Shown here: in pieces, positions 2,522 to 18,627 of the stretch
How positions within the stretch are numbered: the stretch's first letter is position 1
Layout: every line of letters begins with the position of its first letter
Virus record (IMG/VR): IMGVR_UViG_3300017744_003514
Coordinates: 1-22,673 of that record
Length of the DNA stretch: 22,673 nt
Direction: 5' to 3' (one strand)
Source of the DNA: a virus
Program-made: the position numbers and the translations under genes
Notes under the pieces: generated by a model
Seen by the model: the letters and a program-made list of their open reading frames with translations, nothing else
Databases searched by the model: none
What the model was told of the DNA's origin: nothing

Positions 2522-3519
2522 ACAAAGATCAAAACGTTTTAGTAACTGGTGGTGCGGGTTACATTGGTAGCCACATCGTTCTTGCATGTCTGGATGCAGG
2601 CTATGGGGTTGTGGTGATTGACCGTGACGAGAAAGCATGTAAGCATTTACAAAAGTGCCTGAGCCGTCGCAAGAAACTCAAGGTGTTCAACGCAGACATT
2701 GAAAACGAAATCTACTTGGATGGGGTTTTCAAAGATGAAAACATTGGTGCAATTATTCACTGTGCCGCAGACATTTCTGTTGGTGAGTCAGTAGATAATC
2801 CACTCAAGTATTATTACAACAATACATCAAAGAGCATCAAACTTCTTGAGCGAGCAAAGAGATTTGGGGTCAATCGGTTTATTCTTTCGTGTACGGCTGC
2901 TGTATACGGAGAGCCAAAGGGTGACGTAGCAAAGTCAATTCCAGAGACTCAGCCATGTAGACCTATCAATGCTTATGGTGAATCAAAGTTGATGTTTGAA
3001 ACAATTCTCAAGCGATACAGTGAGGTCAACTCAAACTTCAAATATACTTCTCTGAGATATTTCAACGTTGCAGGAAACGATATTCAAAACCGAGTACAGG
3101 ATATCAACTGGAGACACAAAGAAAATGTTGTCCCAAAGATCCTGTCTCGTTTGATTCAGGGAAAAGGTGAATTTACAATCTTTGGTAAGGATTACGATAC
3201 CCCTGATGGTACATGTATTCGTGACTATCTCCATCCCACAGATCTAGCCAATGCCCATCTGATGGCACTCAAGCAAAATGTTACGGGTGTGTATAACCTT
3301 GGAACGAACAAGGGAAACTCGGTGTGGGATCTTGTAAAAGAGGCTGTGAATATTGTTGATGTTGAATTGAATGTTATCAAAGGTAGCCGAAGAAAAGGCG
3401 ATCCTGAAATTCTTGTTGCCAATGCAACTAAGTTTATGAAAAAGACAGGGTGGGAACCATCCTACTCGCTCAATGATATTTTGCGTACAGCATATAAAGC
3501 ATACTTGAAAGTAAAGTAA
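2518..3519 (+). CDS. galE: UDP-glucose 4-epimerase-like extended SDR
   Basis: A 333-residue extended short-chain dehydrogenase/reductase. It has the NAD-binding TGGAGYIGSH motif near residue 11, the SCTAAVYGEP strand, and the catalytic Tyr and Lys in NAYGESKL. The C-terminal half carries the GalE-type IRDYLHPTDLANAH motif, the YNLGTNKG motif and RRKGDPE. Length is normal for GalE (about 330-340). The family interconverts UDP-glucose and UDP-galactose, or the N-acetyl forms, in the cytoplasm. I chose the ATG at 2518, which overlaps the upstream TGA as ATGA, over an ATG nine bases earlier. It may feed UDP-glucose or UDP-galactose to the dehydrogenase and glycosyltransferases downstream. Exact substrate specificity cannot be read from sequence. 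Confidence 0.88.
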   Translation: MNKDQNVLVTGGAGYIGSHIVLACLDAGYGVVVIDRDEKACKHLQKCLSRRKKLKVFNADIENEIYLDGVFKDENIGAIIHCAADISVGESVDNPLKYYYNNTSKSIKLLERAKRFGVNRFILSCTAAVYGEPKGDVAKSIPETQPCRPINAYGESKLMFETILKRYSEVNSNFKYTSLRYFNVAGNDIQNRVQDINWRHKENVVPKILSRLIQGKGEFTIFGKDYDTPDGTCIRDYLHPTDLANAHLMALKQNVTGVYNLGTNKGNSVWDLVKEAVNIVDVELNVIKGSRRKGDPEILVANATKFMKKTGWEPSYSLNDILRTAYKAYLKVK

Positions 3520-3532
3520 GAAAGGTAATGTA

Positions 3533-4141
3533 ATGGAAGAACAACAGAATAGTGAGTTTACACCCGATGTGTATACTTCAAATAAACAACAATCGCTAAA
3601 TGCCCGAGAAGGGATTGGCGAAGATCCACGAGCGGATATTTTTGAGATAGACGGAGAAGAACTCTACAACAAGTTGATGAAAGAAAAGCAAGATTCAGTA
3701 GAGAGTGGGACAACTCCGGTAGAGTCAGTGAAAGATGATGCAGAGATTCGTTCTCGTGCAGCAAAACTGACAGACGATATTGCCAGTCTTGTTCAAGAAA
3801 ATTTCATGGACATTATGTTTGGTCGTTACAAGCAAGCACCAGATTTCAAAGAAATGATTGAAAGTGCGAATGTCGATGCTGAAAATCTTTTGAAGATTTT
3901 GATTGCGTTTGAAAAACCACAGGCACAACTCCATGAAGTTGTGAACGTTCCTGAATCTGAGATTGGTAAAAAGTATTCTGAATTTATGAAGCCAGTCCAA
4001 CAACAACAATTGAATGATGTTCTTTCGGGGCTTGTCAATGACATCAAGTCATTGTATACTGATCCAGACATTGAACTTGTTTCGAGCAAAATTACCAGTT
4101 TGTTCAATCACATTGAAGAGGGAGATATCAAGGGACAGTAA
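3533..4141 (+). CDS. Acidic protein of unknown function
   Basis: A 202-residue acidic protein that I do not recognise. The first 60 or so residues look disordered (rich in Gln, Asn, Ser, Glu). The rest is predicted helical by eye, with amphipathic stretches from about residue 66. The ATG at 3533 follows AAAGG with normal spacing, 13 bases after galE. It lies upstream of the sliding clamp gene, where T4-like phages can carry transcription or replication accessory genes. I see no clear match to gp33, gp55 or RpbA, so no role is claimed. Confidence 0.75.
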   Translation: MEEQQNSEFTPDVYTSNKQQSLNAREGIGEDPRADIFEIDGEELYNKLMKEKQDSVESGTTPVESVKDDAEIRSRAAKLTDDIASLVQENFMDIMFGRYKQAPDFKEMIESANVDAENLLKILIAFEKPQAQLHEVVNVPESEIGKKYSEFMKPVQQQQLNDVLSGLVNDIKSLYTDPDIELVSSKITSLFNHIEEGDIKGQ

Positions 4142-4142
4142 C

Positions 4143-4337
4143 ATGGGAAACATGAAGCGAAAGAAGAGTAATCGAAATCCAAAGCGTAAATTTTTTGACA
4201 CTCGGGACAAAGGGGAAAAAAAGTCTGATCGCCGAAGTCAAAGACATCACGAAGATGTGTATCTGCGTAATGCAGCATTTGGAAATATGAACATTGAAGA
4301 CTATGAGGAATATATGGATGACAACTGCCAGAACTAA
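4143..4337 (+). CDS. Small charge-segregated protein next to the clamp gene
   Basis: A 64-residue protein. Residues 1-40 are strongly basic (many Lys and Arg, for example MKRKKSNRNPKRK), and residues 41-64 are acidic (NIEDYEEYMDD). I chose the ATG at 4143, one base after the upstream stop, rather than an earlier in-frame ATG that would lie entirely inside the previous gene. The clamp gene starts 4 bases after its stop. A nucleic-acid-binding or protein-docking adaptor is possible from the charge pattern alone, but the family is unknown to me. Confidence 0.65.
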   Translation: MGNMKRKKSNRNPKRKFFDTRDKGEKKSDRRSQRHHEDVYLRNAAFGNMNIEDYEEYMDDNCQN

Positions 4338-4341
4338 TACT

Positions 4342-5031
4342 ATGAAACTTTCAAAACAAACAATGGCTATTCTGAAAAGCATGGCTGGAATCAATTCGAA
4401 CATTCACATTCTTCCGGGGAACGAACTTGTTTCTGTTTCTCCCGGTAGAAACATTATGTTCAGATCAACAGTCGAAGAAGATTTTCCCACAGAGTTTGCA
4501 CTCTGGGATCTGAGTCAGTTTCTTGGAACATACTCGCTCTTCTCTGACGCAGAAATTGAATTCCGTGATACGGCTCTTCGGATCAAGTCCGGTCGGCAAA
4601 CATGTGAATACCACTATGCTGATCCGAGACTTGTAGAGGGATGTCGCCCACCAAGCAAATTCAACTTACCGGAGGTGAAGGTTGTATTTGAACTTTCACA
4701 ACAAGAATTGAATGATATTCTTCGGGCTTCCTCTGTGTTGCAACTCCCTGATATCTTGTTTACCAACGATGGAGACAAGGTGAAGATTATTGCACTCGAC
4801 AAAGAGAAGCCAAGTTCGACAAATAAATATGAGATTGAAGTTGTGCCATCAGACATGGATGTAAATTCTTCTTTCAAGATTTATCTAAAGTCAGATAATC
4901 TCAAAATTCTTCCCGGTGATTATGAGATATCACTATGTGAAAAGTTGGCTTTGACCATGAATCATAAAAATATTGATGCAAAATATACCCTTGCAGTAAC
5001 GAGTGATTCTGTATACAATGGGCTTGTATGA
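4342..5031 (+). CDS. gp45: DNA polymerase sliding clamp, T4 gp45 type
   Basis: A 229-residue protein, close to T4 gp45 (228). The start MKLSKQTMAILKSMAGINSN matches the T4 clamp N-terminus (MKLSKDTTALLKNFATINSG) in sequence and position. LWDLSQFLGTYSLF corresponds to the T4 YDLNGFLGILSL segment, and the C-terminal ILPGDYEISLCEKLA corresponds to MQPGNYKLLLWAKG. The family forms a ring trimer that tethers the polymerase and also activates late transcription in T4. The ATG at 4342 is chosen over an upstream in-frame ATG at 4294 because it fits the family N-terminus. Its stop overlaps the gp44 start (ATGA). Confidence 0.93.
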   Translation: MKLSKQTMAILKSMAGINSNIHILPGNELVSVSPGRNIMFRSTVEEDFPTEFALWDLSQFLGTYSLFSDAEIEFRDTALRIKSGRQTCEYHYADPRLVEGCRPPSKFNLPEVKVVFELSQQELNDILRASSVLQLPDILFTNDGDKVKIIALDKEKPSSTNKYEIEVVPSDMDVNSSFKIYLKSDNLKILPGDYEISLCEKLALTMNHKNIDAKYTLAVTSDSVYNGLV

Positions 5032-5975
5032 AAACTATGACTGAACAGTATCTCTGGGTTGAAAAGTTTCGACCACGAAAAGTAAAAGACTGTATCCTTC
5101 CCAGTGGCTTGAAGCAAACACTTCAAGCCATTGTGGATTCGGGTGAAATGCAAAATCTTTTGTTTTCTGGTGGTCCGGGTTGTGGCAAAACAACTGCCGC
5201 AATCGCAATGTGTGATGAAATGGGAGCAGAGTGGATCAAGATCAACTGCTCCGAAGATGGAAACATCGACACGCTTCGCACTCGTATACGTGATTTCGCT
5301 TCTGCTATGTCGCTTTCGGGTGAACAGAAAGTTGTGATTCTCGATGAATTTGACTACGCAAATGCAAACAGTTTTCAACCTGCCCTTCGTGGGTTCATCG
5401 AAGAGTTTGCGGCAAACTGTCGATTTGTTCTGACATGTAATTTCAAGAATCGAATCATTGAACCTTTGCATTCACGATGCACATGCGTTGACTTCCGCTT
5501 CACGAAAGAGGAGCAGATGAAAATGGGGTCACAGTTCTTGAAGCGTCTTGAATCGATTCTGGATGGCGAGAGCGTCCACTATGACGGTCGTGTGATTGCC
5601 AAGTTGATCATGCGTCATGCCCCAGATTGGCGAAGAATCCTGAACGAGTGTCAGCGATACTCTGCATCGGGTGAGATCGATGTTGGTATTCTTTCAGAGA
5701 TCGGTGATGTCGGTATTCATTCATTGATGGCAATACTCAAGAACAAAGACTTTTCAAAGTTGCGTGGCTGGGTTGTCGATAATAGTGGAAATGAAGAAAC
5801 TGAAATCTATCGAAAAGTTTATGATACGTTGAGTGATACTCTCAAGCCGCAGGCTGTTCCTGCGATTATTCTTATTCTTGCAAATTATCAATACAAGGCT
5901 GCCTTCGCTGCTGATTCGGAAATCAACATGATGGCTTGTCTAACTGAGATCATGATGGAGGCAGAGTTCAAGTGA
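5028..5975 (+). CDS. gp44: Clamp loader ATPase subunit, T4 gp44 type
   Basis: A 315-residue AAA+ ATPase, near T4 gp44 in length (319). It has Walker A GGPGCGKT at 48-55, Walker B VVILDEFD at 102-109, sensor 1 at about TCN 136-138 and the SRC arginine-finger motif at 149-151. The N-terminal YLWVEKFRPRKVKDCILP matches the family's EQKYRPSTIDECILP region. With gp62 it opens the gp45 ring and loads it on DNA. The ATG at 5028 overlaps the clamp stop, and a second in-frame ATG at 5037 is possible. Unlike in T4, its partner gp62 is not next but follows two sugar-metabolism genes. Confidence 0.95.
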   Translation: MKTMTEQYLWVEKFRPRKVKDCILPSGLKQTLQAIVDSGEMQNLLFSGGPGCGKTTAAIAMCDEMGAEWIKINCSEDGNIDTLRTRIRDFASAMSLSGEQKVVILDEFDYANANSFQPALRGFIEEFAANCRFVLTCNFKNRIIEPLHSRCTCVDFRFTKEEQMKMGSQFLKRLESILDGESVHYDGRVIAKLIMRHAPDWRRILNECQRYSASGEIDVGILSEIGDVGIHSLMAILKNKDFSKLRGWVVDNSGNEETEIYRKVYDTLSDTLKPQAVPAIILILANYQYKAAFAADSEINMMACLTEIMMEAEFK

Positions 5976-6820
5976 GTGATATTGGAATTATTGGCAATGG
6001 TTTTGTTGGTGGTGCGGTGGCACATGGATTTCGTGATAAGAACCCGTTGATCTATGATATCAATCCAAAGGTATCAACACATTCTTTCGATAAGGTCGCA
6101 CACTGTAAATATCTCTTTGTTTGTTTGCCCACACCAATGGTGAGCGAAACTGGAGGGGAGGCAAACACAAGAATTGTCGAAGACTGCTTAGAGCAACTTT
6201 ACCAAAATACAGAACAAGTAGTCATGTTGAAGTCTACGGTTCCTATTGGAACAACCAAAAGGTTGGCAAAAAAGTATCGGCTAGAAAACTTGGTTCATTG
6301 TCCTGAATTTTTGACGGCTGCAAACGCAAAGTATGATTTTGTGAACGCTGATAGAACCGTGATTGGATCACCTTACTTTAGAGATGGTAAGGTGGAAAAG
6401 TATTCTGAAATGGCAAAGGAATTGTTTGAAGAGGTTTTTCCTGAAATCCCTGTCCACACAATGTCATCATGTGAATCAGAACTGGTAAAGTATACTGCCA
6501 ATTGTTTCCTTGCAACCAAGGTTGGATTTTTCAACATGATTTATATGCTTGGTGAAAAAATGAATTTAGACTACACTCGTGTTCTCGAAGGGGTTTTGTC
6601 TGATCCTAGAATTGGTAGATCCCACACGAAGGTTCCCGGTCCTGATGGCGATTATGGTTTTGGTGGAACGTGCTTTCCAAAGGATGTGAACGCTATGATT
6701 AGAACACTTGAAGACAATAAAATTTCTTCTGCTATGCTGAGATCATTGTGGAAGGACAATATGATGTATCGTAACAATTGGGATTGGGCTAAGAACAAAT
6801 CAGCGGTGAGTGACCAATGA
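5972..6820 (+). CDS. Short UDP-glucose/GDP-mannose dehydrogenase-family protein
   Basis: A 282-residue NAD-dependent nucleotide-sugar dehydrogenase. It has the Rossmann motif IGIIGNGFVGGAVA at 4-17, the CLPTP strand at 51-55, KSTVPIGTT at 87-95, a substrate segment with Lys173 and Asn177 (VKYTANCFLATK), and the catalytic Cys234 in GFGGTCFPKDVNAM. Usual family members are about 390-450 residues. This one stops about 48 residues past the catalytic Cys and lacks the C-terminal UDP-binding domain. The stop is genuine, since the next gene overlaps it as ATGA. The start is GTG at 5972, overlapping the gp44 stop. The family oxidises UDP-glucose to UDP-glucuronate or acts on similar substrates. UDP-glucuronate would be the substrate of the decarboxylase-like gene at 10981. 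Confidence 0.87.
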   Translation: MSDIGIIGNGFVGGAVAHGFRDKNPLIYDINPKVSTHSFDKVAHCKYLFVCLPTPMVSETGGEANTRIVEDCLEQLYQNTEQVVMLKSTVPIGTTKRLAKKYRLENLVHCPEFLTAANAKYDFVNADRTVIGSPYFRDGKVEKYSEMAKELFEEVFPEIPVHTMSSCESELVKYTANCFLATKVGFFNMIYMLGEKMNLDYTRVLEGVLSDPRIGRSHTKVPGPDGDYGFGGTCFPKDVNAMIRTLEDNKISSAMLRSLWKDNMMYRNNWDWAKNKSAVSDQ

Positions 6821-7895: not shown

Positions 7896-8312
7896 ATGGA
7901 AAATAATGACAAGATCGTGGAGTCTCTTGTAGAAGTTACACTGAATGATCCACAAGACTTTTTGAAAGTCAAAGAAACACTAACGAGAATTGGAGTGTCA
8001 TCCCGTGTAGGGAATAAACTTTTCCAATCGTGCCATATTTTGCACAAACGAGGAAAATATTATATTACACACTTCAAAGAACTTTTTGCTCTTGATGGTT
8101 TGCCATCCAAAATGTCAGATGATGATTTCGGTCGCAGGAACACAATTATTGGACTGCTTGCCGAGTGGAATTTATTGAAAATTGTCGATGAAAAAACCTG
8201 TGAGAATCCTCTTGCATCTATTCGTAGAATCAAGATAATATCTCATAAGAATCGACACGAATGGGAATTGATTCCCAAGTATCATATTGGAAACAAACCA
8301 CCAAAGGAGTAG
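7896..8312 (+). CDS. regA: RegA translational repressor
   Basis: A 138-residue protein (T4 RegA is 122). DFLKVKETLTRIG is almost identical to T4 DFLKVKETLTRMG. LFQSCHILHKRGKYYITHFK matches LYQSCHILQKQGKYYIVHFK, and the C-terminal KHEWKLVPKYTIGN region of T4 appears as RHEWELIPKYHIGN. RegA binds initiation regions of early phage mRNAs, including clamp and loader genes and its own, and blocks translation. The ATG at 7896 has a good GGAG and adds about 11 residues before the T4 start, with no better internal start visible. It closes the clamp-loader operon. The GT25-like gene begins 2 bases after its stop. Confidence 0.95.
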   Translation: MENNDKIVESLVEVTLNDPQDFLKVKETLTRIGVSSRVGNKLFQSCHILHKRGKYYITHFKELFALDGLPSKMSDDDFGRRNTIIGLLAEWNLLKIVDEKTCENPLASIRRIKIISHKNRHEWELIPKYHIGNKPPKE

Positions 8313-8314
8313 TG

Positions 8315-9004
8315 ATGAAAATTGATCTTCGTAATGTAAGGACTCGTTGGATAAATGTAGACAAAGACATCGACAAAGCCCGTCAAATGAACGAGTTGCT
8401 TGATGGTCTTGGTTTTCAAAACAGTGAAAGATTTTCAGCAATCACTGGTATTGAACCACACGAAGGTGTTCGAAAAGGTGAAGAACACTACAGAAGTTGT
8501 GCGGAATCTCATTTTGCCCTTCTCGAAAACACAATCCTAAAAGATGGCAAGCCAGTTTTGATTCTGGAAGATGATGTAGAAACAACTGATGCAATCAATG
8601 ATTTTGTTTCCACGGAATACAAGACAGAGTTGGAGTATCCAGAAGATGCTGCTGCAATTTATGTTGGCACATCACAAGGTGATGGTCAATACTATGCCGA
8701 AAAGAAAGATGATTCAGAATGGCTCAAGGTCAGAGGAGTCTTCGCAACACATGCAATTTTGTATCTGAGTGAAGAGTACGCAAGACAAACAATTGAAGTT
8801 GGCAAAAGATGGATCTACGAAAAGAACATACCTTTTGATGTTGGTCTTGCAAAAGATTTGCAACCAAATCATGCGGTGTATGCACCAATTGTTCCGTTCT
8901 TTTATCAAGCAGATTCAAAGAATTCTGTAAACAAATGGGAAGCAATAACTAAAACTCCTTTGAAATTTGCAACAGAATTTAGTCTCGGTACAATTTCGTG
9001 GTAA
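8315..9004 (+). CDS. GT25-like glycosyltransferase
   Basis: A 229-residue protein with a GT25-like plan: an N-terminal IDLRNVRTRW strand, SERFSAITGIEPHEG around 37-51, SCAESHFALLENTI at about 61-74, and the LILEDDV metal/nucleotide motif at 82-88. Members transfer galactose or similar sugars in LPS and on collagen hydroxylysine. I chose the ATG at 8315, which follows AAAGGAG at 8303-8309, rather than an in-frame ATG at 8261 inside regA. It opens the glycan island and overlaps the next gene by 7 bases. Donor and acceptor are unknown. Confidence 0.78.
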   Translation: MKIDLRNVRTRWINVDKDIDKARQMNELLDGLGFQNSERFSAITGIEPHEGVRKGEEHYRSCAESHFALLENTILKDGKPVLILEDDVETTDAINDFVSTEYKTELEYPEDAAAIYVGTSQGDGQYYAEKKDDSEWLKVRGVFATHAILYLSEEYARQTIEVGKRWIYEKNIPFDVGLAKDLQPNHAVYAPIVPFFYQADSKNSVNKWEAITKTPLKFATEFSLGTISW

Positions 9005-9756
9005 AGAAAAGTTTATCGTTCAATTCTCTCGGGGGATTTGGAAGGCTCGGTAACCAAATGTTTCAGTATGCAGCAGTGTACTCCGCTGCAAAAAGACTTG
9101 GAATGACACCTACCGCAAATCTTTCATCGAGTACACTCAAAGATTGTTTTGTTTTGGGTGGAGTCGAAGACACTGTTTCGCAGCCAGACACCATATTTTT
9201 GGAGTCCGACTTTGCCTATGACGATAGGCTGAGATCTCTTCCTACGGACAGAAACATTGATGTCAGAGGTTACTTCCAAAGCGAAAAAAACTTTGCGGAC
9301 TATGACTTTCAAATCAGAGAGCAGTTTGAATTCCAAGATGATGTAAGAGAACCAGCACTTGAAAATTTACCCGAAGGTGTCTTGGTTTCTATTCACATTC
9401 GAAGAGGAGACTATGTTCAACTTTCCGACACCCATACAAATCAAGGCGAAGCATATTACAAAAAAGCCATAGAAAATTTCAGGGATCACCGTCCGGTTGT
9501 TTTTTCCGATGATATTGAATGGTGTAAAAATGAAATGAAATGGCTTGACAACGACCCTGTTTTTATGGACAATGACCAGTACACCGATCTTTGTTTGATG
9601 ACAAACTGTAATACACACATCATCGCAAATAGTAGTTTTAGTTGGTGGGCTGCATGGCTGGGTGGTGGAAAAACTGTTGCACCAAAACAATGGTTCGGTC
9701 CAAATGGACCAACGGATTGGAGTGACATATATTGTAAAGACTGGATTATATTATGA
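8998..9756 (+). CDS. GT11 family (alpha-1,2-fucosyltransferase-like) glycosyltransferase
   Basis: A 252-residue protein with the defining GT11 motifs: GGFGRLGNQMFQYA at 12-25, HIRRGDY at 133-139 and NSSFSWWAAWL at 211-221. The family transfers L-fucose, or sometimes a related sugar, from a GDP donor in an alpha-1,2 linkage. The start is GTG at 8998. The next ATG would cut away the first motif, so GTG is well supported. Somewhat shorter than typical members (about 280-300). No GDP-fucose synthesis genes are visible, so the donor would have to come from the host or from elsewhere in the genome. Confidence 0.9.
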   Translation: MVKKSLSFNSLGGFGRLGNQMFQYAAVYSAAKRLGMTPTANLSSSTLKDCFVLGGVEDTVSQPDTIFLESDFAYDDRLRSLPTDRNIDVRGYFQSEKNFADYDFQIREQFEFQDDVREPALENLPEGVLVSIHIRRGDYVQLSDTHTNQGEAYYKKAIENFRDHRPVVFSDDIEWCKNEMKWLDNDPVFMDNDQYTDLCLMTNCNTHIIANSSFSWWAAWLGGGKTVAPKQWFGPNGPTDWSDIYCKDWIIL

Positions 9757-10334
9757 AAACAAATCCCCGCATCTTGATCTACGGTTCTTCCTACCTTACA
9801 GAACTGGTGATTGACAAAGTAAGAAGAACACATGAAATAGTTGGGTATGTCCCATGTAAAAGTAAACCAACAGTTCCCGGTTCAAATATTCGTGCCCCTC
9901 TGTATGATGGTACTACCCCGTATGACATTGCCATTTCTATACAGTATGATAGAAAAATTCCTGTCGATGGTAAAACATTCAATTTGCATACAGGTCTTTT
10001 ACCTGAGTATGGTGGACGGGATATTCTTCGACACACACTAAATGAAAACCAGAGCGAGCAAGGATTGACTTTTCATGTGATTGATGAGGAATATGATAGT
10101 GGTAATATCATTAGTAAAATAACATATCCTGTCCTTGCCGATGATACAGAAAAAGATTTATACCAAAGACAGTGCTTGATTGCACCGGGCTTTATGGTAT
10201 CATGTCTACAACTTCTTAGAGTAATGGACGAGGAGCAGATTGAGAGATGTCACTCTTATCCTCCGCGTCTTCTGGATAGAGATGGAACAGGAAAAGATAA
10301 AGACTTTTCCAAATGGAGATTGATCAATGTCTGA
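9753..10334 (+). CDS. Nucleotide-sugar N-formyltransferase-like protein
   Basis: A 193-residue formyltransferase-fold protein. The formyl-transfer triad Asn-x-His...Asp is present as Asn77, His79 (FNLHTGLLPEYGG) and Asp115 (DEEYDSGNII). The spacing His to Asp is 36 residues, the same as in the N-terminal domain of E. coli ArnA (His104, Asp140). It is much shorter than methionyl-tRNA formyltransferase and has no tRNA-binding C-terminal domain, so a sugar substrate is likely. The family uses N10-formyltetrahydrofolate to formylate an amino sugar. It sits with a sugar aminotransferase and a decarboxylase-like SDR. The ATG at 9753 overlaps the GT11 stop. Confidence 0.85.
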   Translation: MKTNPRILIYGSSYLTELVIDKVRRTHEIVGYVPCKSKPTVPGSNIRAPLYDGTTPYDIAISIQYDRKIPVDGKTFNLHTGLLPEYGGRDILRHTLNENQSEQGLTFHVIDEEYDSGNIISKITYPVLADDTEKDLYQRQCLIAPGFMVSCLQLLRVMDEEQIERCHSYPPRLLDRDGTGKDKDFSKWRLINV

Positions 10335-10968
10335 TTTTTTAGTTGATGAAAATGTTATTCGAGCCGAAATTGGCAGAGATGTAAAGGGAGTGATTCACAT
10401 CGGGGCACACTTTGGTCAGGAGCATGACTTTTACGAATCTGTCGGAGCAAAAAATATTTTGTATTTTGAATGCCACCCAGAAACATATGAAAAACTTTTG
10501 ATTTCGGTTGGTGAAAAGAGAAACACGGTTTGTGTAAACAAAGCACTCGGTGATGAAAGTGGTGTGACCAAAACGATGTATTGTGAAACTGCAAACACTG
10601 GAATGTCAAACTCACTGTTGAAGCCAAAAGCACACGAGGAAGTTTATCCCAGTATCAAGTTTGATGAAACTGTCGAGGTCGAGCAACTTACACTTGATGA
10701 TTATGCCAAGGATCATGATCTCAGTGAATACAATTTTATGAACATCGATGTACAAGGTTATGAAATGCACGTGTACCGAGGTGCGGTTGAAACCCTAAAA
10801 AATATCAAGTGGATCGTTACGGAAATCAACTTTGCAGAAATGTATTCTGGCTGTGCTAAATACAGAGAAGTCGATGCGTTCTTGAAGGAACAAGGCTTCG
10901 AAATGAAGACAGGCATTGACACTCGATGTGGTTGGGGTGATGCCTTTTATGTAAGAACTGATTCGTAA
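10327..10968 (+). CDS. FkbM family methyltransferase
   Basis: A 213-residue protein with the FkbM pattern. SAM-binding motif VIHIGAHFG is at 22-30, YFECHPE at about 46-52, and the characteristic NIDVQGYE at 139-146. FkbM-type enzymes O-methylate hydroxyls on sugars and polyketides and are common in surface-glycan clusters. The start overlaps the formyltransferase stop by 8 bases. The gap of 12 bases to the next gene holds a TGGAG ribosome binding site. The methyl acceptor is probably a sugar of this island, but that is inference. Confidence 0.88.
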   Translation: MSDFLVDENVIRAEIGRDVKGVIHIGAHFGQEHDFYESVGAKNILYFECHPETYEKLLISVGEKRNTVCVNKALGDESGVTKTMYCETANTGMSNSLLKPKAHEEVYPSIKFDETVEVEQLTLDDYAKDHDLSEYNFMNIDVQGYEMHVYRGAVETLKNIKWIVTEINFAEMYSGCAKYREVDAFLKEQGFEMKTGIDTRCGWGDAFYVRTDS

Positions 10969-10980
10969 TGGAGCAATATC

Positions 10981-12033
10981 ATGAATGTAATCAAAAGTGA
11001 TCTGAAAAATATTATCTGTTCGTCGCTGTCTACCCGTGAAATCAATCGTTTCAAAGGCAAAAGTATTTTTATCTCCGGAGCCAGTGGCTTTCTTGGTCGC
11101 TGGTTTAGTGCCTTATTTGAACATCTCAATGACTCTGCGTTTGTGAGCAGTGCGGATAAGTGCCGCGTGTATGCAGTTGATGTTGAAGATCTTGATATTA
11201 CAAATAATAATTTTCAAGATATGGACATCGGACCATTTGATTTTTATATCAACAGTGCAGGTATCGCCTCTCCGAAGTGGTACAAAAAGCAACCATTCAA
11301 AACTATCGATGTTTCCTATACTGGAACCGTAAATGTTTTTGAAAGAGCATTGCGAGAAAACGCAGAGTCAGTTCTTGTGTTCTCTTCAAGTGAGGTTTAC
11401 GGTGATCCACCAGCAGAGCATATTCCAACACCAGAAACATACACTGGGCAGATCCCAACGATGGGAAGTCGGAGTTGCTACGACGTTGGTAAGTTGGTAA
11501 TTGAAACTCTAAGTGACATCTTTCATCAACAGCACAATCTTCCTGTGAAAATTATTCGCCCATTCAATCTGTATGGACCATACATGCGACTGGATGATGG
11601 ACGTATGATGGCAAACCTGTGCAAGAGTGTTGTTGAAAATGATATCATGTCTGTGTACGGAACTGGTAATCAAACACGAACTTACTGCTATGTTGCAGAT
11701 GCGATTCTTCTAATGATCAAGGCTCTGCTCTCTGATGAAAACGGTGAGATCTTCAATGTTGGTAGCAACTATGATGAGATGTCTGCACTTGAAGTATGTG
11801 AAACATCGTATGATATTCTTGGTGCAAACAAAGATAATCTGAGAGTTATCGAACACCCATCGTTCTATCCAAAGGATGAACCCAATCGTCGTAAGGCTGA
11901 TATTAGTAAAGTTATCAAGGCTTTTGGTCACGAGCCAAAGACTCCGTTTACCGAAGGGATCAAGAGAACTTATCAATATGTCGAGGAAGTGTACAGTAAC
12001 TCACGCGAAAACTTTGGAGGTGAGATCCGATGA
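10981..12033 (+). CDS. UDP-glucuronate decarboxylase-like extended SDR (UXS/ArnA type)
   Basis: A 350-residue extended SDR. It has NAD motif GASGFLG at 33-39, AGIASPKWYKKQPFKT at about 93-108, SSSEVYG at 135-141 with Glu138, and catalytic Tyr167 and Lys171 in SRSCYDVGK. PFNLYGPYMRLDDGR (194-208) and YGTGNQTRTYCYV follow, and Arg303/304 lie in RRKADI. The Ser-Glu pair and the C-terminal Arg are the residues that ArnA and UXS use to decarboxylate UDP-glucuronate. The overall reading is closer to UXS (UDP-xylose forming) than to RmlB. Whether the product is UDP-xylose or the released 4-keto-pentose is not visible. The next gene, an aminotransferase coupled by ATGA, favours the keto product. Confidence 0.85.
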   Translation: MNVIKSDLKNIICSSLSTREINRFKGKSIFISGASGFLGRWFSALFEHLNDSAFVSSADKCRVYAVDVEDLDITNNNFQDMDIGPFDFYINSAGIASPKWYKKQPFKTIDVSYTGTVNVFERALRENAESVLVFSSSEVYGDPPAEHIPTPETYTGQIPTMGSRSCYDVGKLVIETLSDIFHQQHNLPVKIIRPFNLYGPYMRLDDGRMMANLCKSVVENDIMSVYGTGNQTRTYCYVADAILLMIKALLSDENGEIFNVGSNYDEMSALEVCETSYDILGANKDNLRVIEHPSFYPKDEPNRRKADISKVIKAFGHEPKTPFTEGIKRTYQYVEEVYSNSRENFGGEIR

Positions 12034-13121
12034 TTCCTTTGATGAAAGTTCACTGCCCAACAGATATTGGTGAAACTTTACAAGAAGTTTTCTCATCAGG
12101 ATTCGTGACAGAGGGTGAGTATTCCGACAAGTTCGAAATGGCAATCGGAGAGTACCTTGATAATCCTAATGTCTGCCTCGTCAACTCTTGCACAAGTGCA
12201 TTGCATCTTGCTGCACACATGCTGGACTTGGAGGAGGGTGATGAAGTCATTACCACAGCGATGACTTGTATGGCAACCAATGAGCCTTTCTATCATACAG
12301 GTGCAACTCTTGTGTTTGCAGACATTGATCCGACAACAGGGAACATTGATCCGAAGAGCATTGAGGAAAAAATCACAGATCGCACGAAGGGTATCATTGC
12401 GGTACATTGGGGTGGACAACCCTGCGACATGGATGAGATTATGTCGCTTGCAAACGAGTATGATTTGAAAGTTATTGAGGATGCTGCACACGCCTTACGT
12501 TCAACATACAAGGGCAAACTGATTGGAAACCATGGAGACTACGTTTGTTATTCCTTCCAAGCCGTGAAGCACCTTACCACCGTTGATGGTGGTGCGATTG
12601 TATGTAAGAGTTCGGAAGATGCCACCCGAATCAGAAAACTAAGATGGTTTGGTTTGGATCGACAGTTCAAATGTGCATCACGATGGGAGCAAGATATTTC
12701 CGAGTGTGGATATAAGTTTCACATGAATAATGTCAATGCTGCGATTGGTCTTCGACAACTCGAAACAATTGATTTACTGATTGATCGACATGTTGAGAAT
12801 GCAGATTACTTGACAAAATATATCGACAACCCAAAAGTTGATGTTATCAAGTGCAAAGAGGACCGAACATCTTCGGCTTGGCTGTTTAGTGTTCTGGTTG
12901 ATGACAAGGCAAAGTTTAGAAAGCATCTAAATGAAAATGGTATTGCAACAGACAATGCCCATGTCAATAATTTGCGTTACAGCGTTTTCGAAAAGTTCGC
13001 GGTAAAACTTCCCGGTCTTGAAAAGTTTGACTCTGGCTTGATGAATATTCCATGTGGCTGGTGGGTGAGTAATAATGATCGGCAACACATTGCAAATGTA
13101 ATCAATAGTTACGGAAAATAA
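12030..13121 (+). CDS. DegT/DnrJ/EryC1/ArnB-family sugar aminotransferase
   Basis: A 363-residue PLP enzyme. It has SCTSALHLA (53-61), TTAMTCMATNEP (75-86), VHWGGQPCDMDEI (125-137) and EDAAHA (150-155, with Asp151 for the PLP ring nitrogen). The Schiff-base lysine is Lys180 in SFQAVKHLTTVDGG. Length is typical (360-390). The family transfers an amino group, usually from glutamate, to a 4-keto or 3-keto nucleotide sugar. It is translationally coupled to the decarboxylase-like SDR and one gene away from FkbM and the formyltransferase. That context suggests the product is a 4-amino sugar that is then formylated. Confidence 0.92.
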   Translation: MIPLMKVHCPTDIGETLQEVFSSGFVTEGEYSDKFEMAIGEYLDNPNVCLVNSCTSALHLAAHMLDLEEGDEVITTAMTCMATNEPFYHTGATLVFADIDPTTGNIDPKSIEEKITDRTKGIIAVHWGGQPCDMDEIMSLANEYDLKVIEDAAHALRSTYKGKLIGNHGDYVCYSFQAVKHLTTVDGGAIVCKSSEDATRIRKLRWFGLDRQFKCASRWEQDISECGYKFHMNNVNAAIGLRQLETIDLLIDRHVENADYLTKYIDNPKVDVIKCKEDRTSSAWLFSVLVDDKAKFRKHLNENGIATDNAHVNNLRYSVFEKFAVKLPGLEKFDSGLMNIPCGWWVSNNDRQHIANVINSYGK

Positions 13122-13122
13122 A

Positions 13123-13851
13123 ATGTCATACGGTATTGAAAAGAAAATATCTATTGTCATGCCCACCCATGAAATGGGTGGCAACGGTATCAAATACTTT
13201 GACCAACAATTCCAAGCATTATTGCACCAAACAACTGATGACTTTGATTTGGTTGTTTCTGATCAAAGCACAGATGATCTTATTGAGAAGCGTTGTGAGT
13301 ATTACAGCGATAGGATCGATATCAAGTATCATCGGTTTGATGGTCCTCGGCGTGCTGCAAACAATGTAAATAATGCAATGAAACTTGCAACAGGACAAAT
13401 TCTCAAGCCGCTGTTTGTTGATGATCGTATGTTTAGAAAGGACTCTCTTGAAACATACATTCAATTACACGAAGATAATCCGTTTCATCATTGGGCATTC
13501 ACTGGGTTTATTCATTGTAAAGATGATTCCGCAGAAGAAGGTAAACTCTTCAACCCAAGATTACCAAGATGGAATCAAGAGATTTATCTAAGCAATACGG
13601 TGGGGTGTCCAAGTGGAATGAGTATTCTCAATCATGAAGATTTACCAATAATTGATGATACCTTTTTGTGGGTTATGGACATCGAATGGTATATGCGTCT
13701 TTATTTGAAATATGATCTGCCTGTTTTCCATGAAGATATTCATACGCTGATTCGAATTCACGACGAATCCGTTAGTTCACAAACACAAGAGGAAACAAAA
13801 AAATCAGAAGATGAGAGAGTTCGTGAAATGTATACAGGGGTTACAAGATGA
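13123..13851 (+). CDS. GT2 family glycosyltransferase
   Basis: A 242-residue GT-A fold protein. KISIVMPTHEMGG at 8-20 and VVSDQSTDD at 44-52 form the nucleotide-sugar binding part. RAANNVNNAMKLATGQ leads to the metal-binding VDD at 99-101. The later WVMDIEWYMRLYLKY region matches the acceptor-side WxxDxEW pattern often seen in GT2. It starts one base after the aminotransferase stop and overlaps the next gene as ATGA. Donor and acceptor are unknown. Confidence 0.85.
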   Translation: MSYGIEKKISIVMPTHEMGGNGIKYFDQQFQALLHQTTDDFDLVVSDQSTDDLIEKRCEYYSDRIDIKYHRFDGPRRAANNVNNAMKLATGQILKPLFVDDRMFRKDSLETYIQLHEDNPFHHWAFTGFIHCKDDSAEEGKLFNPRLPRWNQEIYLSNTVGCPSGMSILNHEDLPIIDDTFLWVMDIEWYMRLYLKYDLPVFHEDIHTLIRIHDESVSSQTQEETKKSEDERVREMYTGVTR

Positions 13852-14666
13852 TTACTTTCAATGAAAAGGCATCATGGTGTGCAAACTTTACGCATGAACA
13901 CATGTCAAATGAACTTATTGGAAGTTATGACATTCACTCTGTTGCAGTGCCGCAGACACGAACACCGGGAGCAACGATGGTTTACATTGACGCATTCGAA
14001 CCTGACTTCGTTTCCTCCCCTGTTGATGCTGTCCATGCAAATATCAAAAATATTGATTTGATTTTGAGTAGAAGACCTGAAATTTTGGCAGCGTATCCGG
14101 ACAAGGCTCGAAAGTTTATTTTTGGTACAACCCACCTTGTTCAACCAAGAACTGAAAACAAATCAGAGTCAGTATCATTTACGATGACTGGGAAACGAAA
14201 CAATCTGGCTGATGGATACAACCTCCGTTGGAATCTTATAGAAAATGCAAGTACGATAAATTTTTCTTTGCCTTTTCATTATTATGATAGTTCAAAGGTT
14301 CCTGCTCTCGTAGACTACCCTCACAAACTTGGGGAAACTAAAGAGCAACTGTTTGATTCTATGTTTTCTGTAATCATTGAAAACCAAAGACTCCCCAACT
14401 ACATCACCGAAAAACTAATTGATTGTATCTTATCCAAAACTGTACCTTTATATTTTGGATCACCAAATGTCGCAGATTACTTCGACACATCAGGTATGAT
14501 TATCATTAGAGACTTTACACACTTGAAAGAGGTTCTCGAAAACTTGACTGTCGAGGACTATGAAACTAGAAAAAATGTGATGCAAAAAAATCTTGACTTA
14601 GCACAAGATCTTGCACGACCACTTGCTGATCGAACAATTGAAGCGATCAAGCAGGTGAATACATAA
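13848..14666 (+). CDS. GT10-like (alpha-1,3-fucosyltransferase-like) glycosyltransferase
   Basis: A 272-residue protein. The GT10 donor-binding signature is clear in the C-terminal half: FSVIIENQRLPNYITEKL (173-190), then SKTVPLYFGSPNVADYF. This mirrors the family pattern of FENS...YxTEK...VPVxxG. The N-terminal half is divergent. GT10 enzymes use GDP-fucose and usually make alpha-1,3 or 1,4 links. With the GT11 gene this gives two putative fucosyltransferases in one island. Coupling to GT2 is by ATGA. A 17-base gap with AGGAG precedes the next gene. Confidence 0.8.
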   Translation: MITFNEKASWCANFTHEHMSNELIGSYDIHSVAVPQTRTPGATMVYIDAFEPDFVSSPVDAVHANIKNIDLILSRRPEILAAYPDKARKFIFGTTHLVQPRTENKSESVSFTMTGKRNNLADGYNLRWNLIENASTINFSLPFHYYDSSKVPALVDYPHKLGETKEQLFDSMFSVIIENQRLPNYITEKLIDCILSKTVPLYFGSPNVADYFDTSGMIIIRDFTHLKEVLENLTVEDYETRKNVMQKNLDLAQDLARPLADRTIEAIKQVNT

Positions 14667-14683
14667 TACCACAGGAGAAAATT

Positions 14684-15946
14684 ATGAGTAAGCGACCCAG
14701 CGTAACCCTTTGTATGATTGTCAAAAATGAAGAACACATTATCTGTGAGTGCCTTGAATCTATTGCACCACATATTGATAGGTACGATATTTCTGACACC
14801 GGATCTACTGATGGTACTATCAAAGTGATCAAAGACTTCTTTGAAGACAAGGGAATCCCCGGTGAAGTCCATGAAATTCCTTGGCGGGGGTTTGGTAAGA
14901 GTAGAACAGAGTCACTCGACAATGCCGCTAAGAGTGGTGCAGAATACGCATGGGTTATTGACGCTGACGATAGACTTCAAGGAAACTTCAAGTACCCAAA
15001 AGAAATGACTGCGGACAGTTATGCCCTGAATATTCTTCGTGGTGAATTCAACTGGTGGAGACAACAGATTTTCAAACTTGATATGAGTTGGGAGTATGTT
15101 GGTGTGCTTCACGAATATGCACATAGTAGAAAGGCAAAGGACGGTGGGTTTACCGCAACTGCTATCAAATTAGAGGGCGACTATAATATTGATGCCCGGA
15201 CAATGGGTGATCGAACAGTTCAATTTGGAGATGATCAAGCAAAGAAGTATCGAACCGATGCCGAAACTTTGATCGATTGTCTTGAAAATCCTGAAAATGA
15301 AAATTATGAACCCGATAATTTACGTTACATGTTCTATGTCGCACAGTCATATTTTGATGCCCAAGATTTTGAAAAGGCATGTGAGTGGTATACAAAGCGT
15401 GCGAAAAAAGGTGGGTGGGAAGAAGAAGTTTGGTACTGCGTCTATCGTGTTGCTATCTGTAAGTGCCTGCTGAAGAAGCCGTGGGAAGAAGCCCAAGATC
15501 ACTTCTTGCAGGCATGGAACATCCGTCCCTCACGACCTGAGCCACTATACCACCTTGCAAGAATTCATCGACAGAATGGTAACCCACGATTGGGATATTT
15601 GTTTGCAACACAGGCAAATAAAATTGCTCCACCAGTCAATGATATTTTGTTCCTGTCTCACGATGTGTACGATTGGATGGTTCTTGATGAGGTTGCCTCT
15701 TCAGCATGGCACGTTGGTGATATGATTGCGGGACTTGAGGCATCGAATAAACTTCTGGAAGATAAAAAATTCCCCAAAGAGCATGAAGAAAGAATTGTAA
15801 ATAATTTTGCACAATATGCAAAATGGCTTGAGCAAAAAAGACTCGAAGAACAGGCACAACATGAAGAGCAAGTGAAGAAGGCTGTTGAAGAAAAAATGAA
15901 GCGAACCAAAACGCCTGCACCGAGGAGAAAAAAGGCTAAGAGATAA
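14684..15946 (+). CDS. GT2 glycosyltransferase with TPR-like C-terminal region
   Basis: A 420-residue two-part protein. Residues 1-110 are a GT2 core: CMIVKNEE (10-17), DTGSTDGT (38-45) and the metal motif DADD (93-96). [21 protein letters not shown] completes the acceptor side. Residues of about 205-350 form helical TPR-like repeats ([34 protein letters not shown]), suited to holding a protein partner. The tail (about 365-420) is a charged coiled coil ending in a basic patch. GT2-TPR fusions are known in large viruses and bacteria. The ATG at 14684 has AGGAG upstream. The stop shares one base with the start of the collagen-like fibre gene. Confidence 0.85.
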
Positions 15947-17019
15947 TGGCTGGATTCACCTTTCCATCTAGTGTTACATTTGGAACACCCCTGACTATCG
16001 GAGTGAAGAACTATCGATGGAACGGGTTTGGTTTCGATTTGCTTAGTCTGGAAGGTCCGACAGGTCCAACTGGTGCTACGGGATCTGATGGTGCGACAGG
16101 AGCCACTGGCTCTGATGGGGTGACAGGAGCCACTGGTGCTACGGGATCTGATGGTGCGACAGGAGCAACCGGACCCGTTGGTGATTTTGTTGAATTTTTG
16201 AACGGAGTAACAGGAGCGATTACGACTGAGGGCTTGACGTTTGCCTTTGCCGGTATCTCGGTGGGTGCTTCTGGGATTACAAACAATGGTGCTTTCCACA
16301 AAGTCGTGAAGACAAGTGCTGGCATCTCGATGGATACCGCAGGACTGACCTTTCCTGATGGCTCTCATTTGACATCCGAAGCCCAAATTGCTTTCAAGAA
16401 TGAAGAAAATCATTTCACAGTAAATCAATTTTTGACTGCGGCTAAGGGAATTGGAGTGAACGGCGGTGAGCCATCTATTAGATTTGATTCTAATAATGTT
16501 GTTGTAATTGGTGATCCCGAAGAAGGCACTAATTCTACGAAACTTACTGTTAGTGACAGCGGACAAAAAATTACAGCAAATAAAGTGTTCAATACAAGTG
16601 CCGGTATCTCAATGGATACCGCAGGAATCACCTTCCCCGATAGCACTCATCAAAAAGGTGCAGTAAAAGATGTAGCAACATTTACGATGAAGTCTTCTTC
16701 TGCCATTGCAACCGGACAAAAGATTGAAGCGATGTATCGTATGCCCTACAATGCAAAACTGCTTCGTCTAGATGCTAAACTTTCATCGGCTGGTAACTTT
16801 AGAGGCACTATCGACATTGCTGGATCTGACTTCGGTAATCCAACATCAAGTCATACAGAGGCATTGACTTTCAATCACACAGCCGGTGGTATTTCTTTTG
16901 ATGTGACATCAATGACAACGGCATCAGTCACGGCAGGAAACTTTTTGTATGTTGATCTTTCAGTGAACGGTGCGGGTGCGACCGGCGCACAACTTTTCTT
17001 GACTTACGAAACGAGGTAA
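15946..17019 (+). CDS. Collagen-like repeat fibre protein (probable tail fibre or adhesin)
   Basis: A 357-residue protein. An N-terminal region (1-36) is followed by 14 Gly-X-Y triplets at 37-78, 10 of them with Thr in the third place (GPT, GAT, GVT). Then come two copies of a [10 protein letters not shown](L/I)TFPD module separated by a linker, as seen in marine phage fibres. A C-terminal beta-rich domain (about 245-357) ends in LFLTYETR. Collagen-like triplets trimerise in phage fibres. Probably a virion structural protein that contacts the host, although no exact family match is claimed. It follows the glycosyltransferase genes with a one-base stop/start overlap, so the Thr-rich triplets are candidate glycosylation sites. 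Confidence 0.82.
16054..16179 (+). repeat. Collagen-type triplet repeat with a 35-base perfect direct repeat
   Basis: This stretch encodes 14 Gly-X-Y triplets. At DNA level the segment 16069-16103 is repeated perfectly at 16132-16166, 63 bases apart (21 codons). Such repeats can expand or contract by recombination in whole triplets, changing fibre length without a frameshift. Confidence 0.9.
16312..16650 (+). repeat. Two copies of a 57-base fibre module
   Basis: The bases 16312-16368 and 16594-16650 encode near-identical 19-residue modules ([11 protein letters not shown](L/I)TFPD...H). DNA differences are mostly at third positions. This is a protein-level repeat under selection and is typical of modular phage fibres. 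Confidence 0.85.
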
Positions 17020-18204: not shown

Positions 18205-18627
18205 ATGGCTGCCGAATACAACATCACACACGACAAGGGAACCACTTTCAAGTTTTATGCCCTTTATAAAGATTCGTCAGGAAATGCAGTGGATCTTGCT
18301 GGACAAACAGCAAGTATGCAAATTCGTCGAAGTCCAGACGATACAGAACTAACCTTGTTTATCACAAACACTGGGGTAACCAGTGGTGGAACTACTGGAG
18401 AGTTTAGCATTGGCGGCGGAACATCCGGAACCGGCGGGATCACACTCAATGGATCTTCAGCAGGTGCAGCAGGAACGACTGGGGGAGTCTATGTTGAATT
18501 TGACGCAGCAACCTCAACTTCTCTACCGACTGGAAGAATGTTCTATGATTTTGAACTTTTGAAAGGCGAAGAAGTTACTCGTCTTGTTCAAGGTAGATTT
18601 GAAACTATTTCTAATATTACGCGATGA
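18205..18627 (+). CDS. Small beta-rich probable virion protein
   Basis: A 140-residue protein. The plan is GTTFKFYALYKDSSGNAVDL, TASMQIRRSPDD, a Gly/Thr-rich middle, then MFYDFELLKGEEVTRLVQGR and an ending in TR. It matches a type of small phage structural protein I recall from fibre and baseplate regions of many tailed phages (beta-sandwich, residues about 1-140). A good GGAG precedes the ATG. It lies after two fibre-like genes, which supports a structural role. No enzymatic motif. Confidence 0.7.
   Translation: MAAEYNITHDKGTTFKFYALYKDSSGNAVDLAGQTASMQIRRSPDDTELTLFITNTGVTSGGTTGEFSIGGGTSGTGGITLNGSSAGAAGTTGGVYVEFDAATSTSLPTGRMFYDFELLKGEEVTRLVQGRFETISNITR

Follow-up and report, generated by a model that had tools for sequence, protein, structure and literature searches.

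A predicted SgtA-type protein glycosyltransferase and a Gly-X-Thr collagen-like fibre encoded by overlapping genes of a marine T4-like phage: a case for probable self-glycosylation

The window is the whole 22,673-nucleotide (22.7 kb) record of an uncultured virus (IMG/VR record IMGVR_UViG_3300017744_003514). The virus is a marine, T4-like virus that infects bacteria; its DNA polymerase shares about 50% identity with the marine cyanophage enzymes, and sliding-clamp-like and clamp-loader-like genes were spotted by eye in the translations. The subject here is a pair of adjacent genes that encode a predicted protein glycosyltransferase, which features a GT2 family domain followed by a TPR region (GT2-TPR), and a collagen-like tail-fibre protein (Table 1). 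The TAA stop codon of the enzyme gene and the ATG start codon of the fibre gene have one A in common at position 15946 (TAATG), as had been reported in an earlier note on this DNA, and this zero-offset junction is preserved in five related phage loci (L002, L003, L005, L171, and L173).

The fibre protein consists of an N-terminal module with the motif FP..Y.WNG.GF, which probably anchors it in the virion, a run of collagen triplets, a middle part, and a predicted jelly-roll C-terminal domain. A motif resembling FP..Y.WNG.GF opens fibre-type open reading frames at the related loci L013, L174, L175, and L182. The collagen run features 14 Gly-X-Y triplets, or 15 with GDF included, and Thr occupies Y in 10 of the 14 and X in none, which agrees with the earlier counts of fourteen triplets and ten Thr. 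PF01391 matches residues 37–79 with 33.0 bits (cut-off 27.2). The longest run never exceeded 5 triplets in 2000 shuffles of the fibre, and the probability of at least 10 Thr at Y in 14 triplets, given the Thr content of the protein, is 1e-6, so the collagen run is real and not due to chance. The AlphaFold model of the head (predicted local distance difference test, pLDDT, 83) best matches the tail-fibre tip of Agrobacterium phage 7-7-1 in VIA (Z 10.6, root-mean-square deviation (rmsd) 2.0, 101 residues), and the BFVD matches are phage proteins annotated as collagen repeats. VIA also gave a Z of 8.5 against the C1q head; this likeness is middling (Z about 8), and the head is therefore described as a jelly roll like that of a tail-fibre tip. 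A PDB search revealed no sequence-level relative of the head, and tblastn of the fibre against the annotated phage collection gave zero matches. On the modelled fold, the candidate acceptor would be of the tail-fibre type, its head a jelly roll.

The enzyme features a GT-A domain (about residues 1–175), a TPR/helical region (about 185–360), and a charged helix with a basic tail (about 365–420). PF00535 is above its cut-off at residues 9–99 and the TPR matches in Pfam, at about residues 205–300, are each under their own cut-off; the C-terminal TPR/helical-repeat region is seen in the helical repeats of the AlphaFold model (pLDDT 89) and in matches to TPR chains. An alignment of 119 homologues shows that D93-A94-D95 (DXD) is kept in 99–100% of them and that, over a range that reaches from phage to Streptomyces, the DXD, H143-E144, and several residues in the TPR region vary little or not at all. 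A PDB search with a profile built from eleven phage orthologues returned, in order, GmaR (1.6e-20), SunS (1.5e-10), and ThuS (7msk, 1.8e-8). The best Foldseek and VIA matches to the model are SunS and ThuS, which span both the glycosyltransferase and helical domains (in VIA, Z 20.9 over 270 residues with rmsd 2.8 for 7msp, and Z 19.7 over 316 residues with rmsd 7.2 for 7msk). The fold group is therefore one of protein and peptide glycosyltransferases: GmaR glycosylates flagellin, and SunS and ThuS are peptide S-glycosyltransferases. Two narrower identities were rejected: the SunS-family equivalog TIGR04195 gives the enzyme 29.3 bits against a cut-off of 350, and its 420 residues leave no room for the C-terminal linker and antirepressor domains of GmaR. 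Distant matches in the annotated phage collection are confined to a few huge phages and short fragments. The Lys/Arg-rich tail and charged helix of the phage enzymes lie beyond the end of the alignment with bacterial homologues.

A proven pair of this kind is SgtA and BclA3 of Clostridioides difficile. SgtA, a 358-residue protein with a GT-A domain and four TPRs, is encoded directly ahead of bclA3. In purified form it puts beta-O-GlcNAc (O-linked N-acetylglucosamine) on Thr, and also Ser, in synthetic peptides of BclA3, most of them from the collagen region (PMC7157674). The phage pair is alike in having a GT-A domain with TPRs in about 360–420 residues, encoded immediately upstream of a Thr-rich collagen-like gene, a likeness of architecture and gene order as described in PMC7157674 and not of direct alignment. 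It differs in the basic tail of the enzyme, the large variable glycan cassette ahead of it, and the tail-fibre-type acceptor. The enzyme and fibre are probably the phage version of the SgtA–BclA3 pair. SunS and ThuS (PDB 7msn, 7msp, 7msk) share the two-domain fold, and SunS is itself prophage-derived, but they target Cys of a glycocin peptide. GmaR of Listeria (PDB 22ao), which transfers GlcNAc to flagellin, also features a glycosyltransferase domain followed by TPRs and a fibre-forming acceptor, but it has 637 residues, a linker, and an antirepressor domain, and its acceptor is flagellin (PMC9638930).

Genomic linkage in bacteria points to the same type of acceptor. A collagen run of at least 8 triplets is located within 6 kb of the enzyme gene, often within a few hundred bases, in 49 of the 80 closest bacterial homologues. 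The linked homologues come from many phyla and fall in 21 of 39 taxon labels, which include Thiothrix, Bacillus, Desulfosporosinus, Mesorhizobium, Methylobacterium, Streptomyces, Planctomycetales, and Mucilaginibacter. PF01391 was found in all 20 enzyme-bearing genomes of a set assembled by hand and not at random, and in these genomes a collagen run is present at 12 of 20 GT2-TPR loci versus 1 of 20 loci of the top-scoring other GT2, the sole such control locus being a GVV repeat artefact. The median share of triplets with Thr at Y is 67% for collagens beside the enzyme (95% in Proteobacteria), versus 10% in genomes lacking the enzyme (p 4e-11); the comparison set consists of 39 collagens from Pseudomonadota, its rows are not phylogenetically independent, and it may favour Thr-poor collagens since they were picked by Pfam score. 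The reverse test started from 40 collagen loci of two phyla, chosen by Pfam score regardless of the enzyme, and revealed a GT2-TPR-like neighbour at 7 of 11 Thr-rich collagens versus 1 of 29 Thr-poor ones (p 1e-4). One control collagen, L276, was discarded as an antisense artefact. The apparent exception, L302/L315, is a high-Thr collagen first scored as enzyme-free that is adjoined by a divergent GT2-TPR. At L315 a fusion of a PF11397 GlcNAc-transferase with a 2OG-Fe(II) oxygenase-like stretch and this GT2-TPR (4610–6394, minus strand, and 3482–4573, plus strand) lie beside the Gly-X-Thr collagen (8622–10307), and the locus possibly combines hydroxylation with glycosylation of a bacterial collagen. 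Co-occurrence at the genome level is weak evidence: PF01391 is carried by 7 of 8 enzyme-positive and 122 of 291 enzyme-negative Pseudomonadota, centre genome included, and in the Bacillota sample the centre genome alone is enzyme-positive at the strict cut-off.

The phage enzymes form essentially one clade in a quick tree (38 of 39 rows, Shimodaira-Hasegawa approximate likelihood ratio test (SH-aLRT) 98, with one long-branched row outside), placed near homologues from Bacillus, Desulfosporosinus, and Thiotrichaceae. They occur at 36 phage loci counted as distinct, in records that are fragmentary or of uncertain completeness. The enzyme is nearly always the last gene before the fibre module. 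The genes that precede it vary by phage lineage, which would be expected if the enzyme starts a glycan chain and exchangeable enzymes finish it. These phages commonly carry hypervariable islands close to their fibres (PMC7029224), so a fibre module and a glycosyltransferase island, both variable, might simply have met here; the essentially single phage clade, the nearly constant place of the enzyme amid changing preceding genes, and the linkage in bacteria make such a coincidence very improbable, and the reciprocal tests largely refute it. The six collagens that abut a phage enzyme have Thr at 67–93% of their Y positions. Two relatives (L002:11260-12471 and L003:11272-12105) have stalks expanded to long Gly-Thr-Thr runs, with Thr at both X and Y.

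Several results weigh against the fibre as acceptor. The most constant phage neighbour of the enzyme is not a collagen but a BppU-like protein, which is encoded by the next gene in 23 of the 36 loci; a collagen fibre follows in 7 and another gene in 6, three of them fibre-type. The earlier note had proposed checking whether the glycosyltransferase always lies next to the collagen-like fibre, and such constancy was not found: about two thirds of the loci have a collagen gene in the 7.5 kb downstream and about one third have none there, several relatives, among them the subclade L188/L007/L184/L230/L193/L195, lack a collagen at the locus, and the 136 kb L185 record has zero PF01391 matches. L197 and L204 have nearly Thr-free collagens directly downstream of the enzyme. 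The association within phages alone is modest (16/24 versus 7/22, p 0.04, kinship ignored), and 31 of the 80 bacterial loci have no collagen run within 6 kb, in some cases owing to the end of the contig. In phages with a Thr-poor collagen or none, another Ser/Thr-rich virion protein may be the acceptor, with the BppU-like protein as the first candidate. It could even be, though this is unlikely, that the true acceptor throughout is the BppU-like protein, with its homologues, or another baseplate or fibre protein, and that collagens are optional extras. In several relatives that lack a collagen, the locus encodes no structural-type protein other than the BppU-like one, whose middle loops abound in Gly, Ser, and Thr, and SgtA accepts Ser as well (PMC7157674), but the bacterial homologues adjoin Thr-rich collagens in both test directions and TGTTGG-type loops also occur in the enzyme-less relatives L205 and L209. 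The idea that only enzyme-bearing phages have a Ser/Thr-rich acceptor of the BppU-like type was rejected, as similar loops occur where the enzyme is absent. The BppU-like protein gave zero tblastn matches in the annotated phage collection.

The enzyme is the last of a sugar cassette that spans about 8.2–14.7 kb and is ordered GT25-like, GT11, formyltransferase, FkbM methyltransferase, dehydratase/epimerase, DegT aminotransferase, GT2, and GT10. The cassette thus holds the amino-sugar, formyl-transfer, and methyl-transfer enzymes that the earlier note had read in it. Polysaccharide loci often hold genes like the upstream GT10, GT11, GT25, and sugar-nucleotide ones, and glycosyltransferase-rich host-recognition islands in pelagimyophages have been interpreted as altering the host lipopolysaccharide (LPS) (PMC7029224). 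It is improbable that the whole cassette, last enzyme included, remodels the LPS O-chain or another surface polysaccharide of the host to exclude other phages, given that GT2-TPR belongs to a protein- and peptide-modifying fold group and is tied genomically to Thr-rich collagens; these points argue against the LPS reading for the GT2-TPR enzyme only and not for the genes upstream. Cassettes of two relatives carry a carbamoyltransferase-type gene (L008:7555-9183, Pfam-tested, and L009:7562-9184), which suggests carbamoylated sugars. T4-like phages glucosylate or otherwise decorate their DNA bases with other glycosyltransferases, and the phage GT2-TPR enzymes have a basic C-terminal tail. That the cassette modifies phage DNA is nevertheless scarcely credible, as the family scans of its enzymes gave no DNA-glucosyltransferase family and in bacteria GT2-TPR genes are linked to collagen genes. 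BclA of Bacillus anthracis is a spore protein with a Thr-rich glycosylated collagen stalk, and the pathway of its sugar anthrose includes an aminotransferase and methylation; to our knowledge anthrose involves no formyl transfer. The enzyme sets are likened by description, and the anthrose parallel proved loose, a matter of generic amino-sugar, formyl, and methyl chemistry.

Self-glycosylation of the fibre, in which the GT2-TPR enzyme modifies Thr of the phage's own Gly-X-Thr stalk in the manner of SgtA, is the likely reading. It is well supported by the two-way family linkage and by analogy with the proven SgtA–BclA3 architecture, and this core idea of the earlier note stands, without the constant adjacency and the anthrose parallel. 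The gene next to that of the fibre encodes an enzyme of the type that puts sugars on Thr in collagen-like proteins, and the fibre is thus probably sugar-coated by the phage's own enzyme. The enzyme would be a soluble SgtA-type protein O-glycosyltransferase whose GT-A domain uses a nucleotide sugar, by analogy UDP-GlcNAc, as its donor. Its TPR domain, with several residues invariant among the 119 sequences, would grip the collagen-like acceptor, and the first sugar would be placed on Thr in the stalk of the fibre encoded by the overlapping gene. This first sugar is probably lengthened and diversified by the glycosyltransferases and sugar-modifying enzymes encoded upstream, which are rapidly exchanged. 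The benefit may be shielding of the stalk, altered binding, or protection from proteases.

Several other features of the window were noted. The gene directly downstream of the fibre gave no match in the Pfam and PHROG scans. Two tandem related proteins (175–1071 and 1037–1957) feature repeated DxDGDG-type (EF-hand/dockerin-like) motifs, as seen by eye. A search of the record for the T4 late-promoter motif ATAAATA revealed 1 distant match, at 4823, which is below chance expectation, and a sigma-70 scan gave background level only.

Table 1. Features of the glycosyltransferase–fibre locus, by position in the window
Feature	Position	Strand	Basis
GT25-like glycosyltransferase (weak)	8261..9004	+	PF01755, slightly below cut-off
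GT11-family glycosyltransferase	8998..9756	+	PF01531
Formyltransferase (ArnA/PurN-like)	9753..10334	+	PF00551; PurN, ArnA models under cut-off
FkbM-family methyltransferase	10327..10968	+	PF05050; TIGR01444 over cut-off
NAD-dependent sugar dehydratase/epimerase	10981..12033	+	PF01370; dTDP-glucose 4,6-dehydratase model under cut-off
DegT/PseC-like sugar aminotransferase	12030..13121	+	PF01041 2e-90; PseC model under cut-off
GT2-family glycosyltransferase, candidate glycan extender	13123..13851	+	PF00535
GT10-family glycosyltransferase (fucosyltransferase-type), candidate glycan extender	13848..14666	+	PF00852
GT2-TPR protein glycosyltransferase (predicted), 420 aa	14684..15946	+	PF00535, AlphaFold model, PDB profile matches
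Collagen-like tail-fibre protein, 357 aa, proposed glycan acceptor	15946..17019	+	PF01391, tail-fibre PHROGs
N-terminal module FP..Y.WNG.GF of fibre, probable virion anchor	15946..16053	+	
14 Gly-X-Y triplets, proposed O-glycosylation sites	16054..16179	+	
C-terminal jelly-roll head domain of fibre (predicted)	16663..17016	+	AlphaFold, VIA, BFVD
Conserved neighbour gene, same cluster, in L003, L171, L173	17023..18186	+	
phrog_1084-like Gly/Ser/Thr-rich protein, labelled BppU-like by eye; rival acceptor	18205..18627	+	

Both phage self-glycosylation and viral collagen glycosylation are already known. Mycobacteriophage Che8 glycosylates its own virion protein (Freeman et al. 2023, cited in PMC11256854); it is likened here by description, and the description cited there differs in reporting the major capsid protein as the acceptor and mentions no collagen stalk. 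Mimivirus L230 is a virus-encoded enzyme that glycosylates a viral collagen-like protein (PMC9614988), but it is from an amoebal virus, places glucose on hydroxylysine, and has its glycosyltransferase fused to a lysyl hydroxylase. Within the open-access literature searched, two things are new: the SgtA-like phage pair, with a tail fibre as its proposed acceptor, and the link of GT2-TPR enzymes with Gly-X-Thr collagens across phyla. For at least one conserved enzyme, the locus offers a testable alternative to the LPS reading of such islands in marine phages, namely decoration of the phage's own fibre. The reciprocal linkage turns one proven pair, SgtA–BclA3, into a rule that predicts the acceptor of many bacterial GT2-TPR enzymes, and it points to enzymes for glycosylated recombinant collagens. 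More tentatively, and with the odds slightly against so broad a claim, GT2-TPR enzymes and Gly-X-Thr collagens may form a widespread unrecognised module across phyla, from which T4-like aquatic phages would have captured the enzyme as a lasting lineage gene coupled to an exchangeable sugar cassette, so that lineage-specific glycosylation of the fibre may tune adsorption or shield the fibre.
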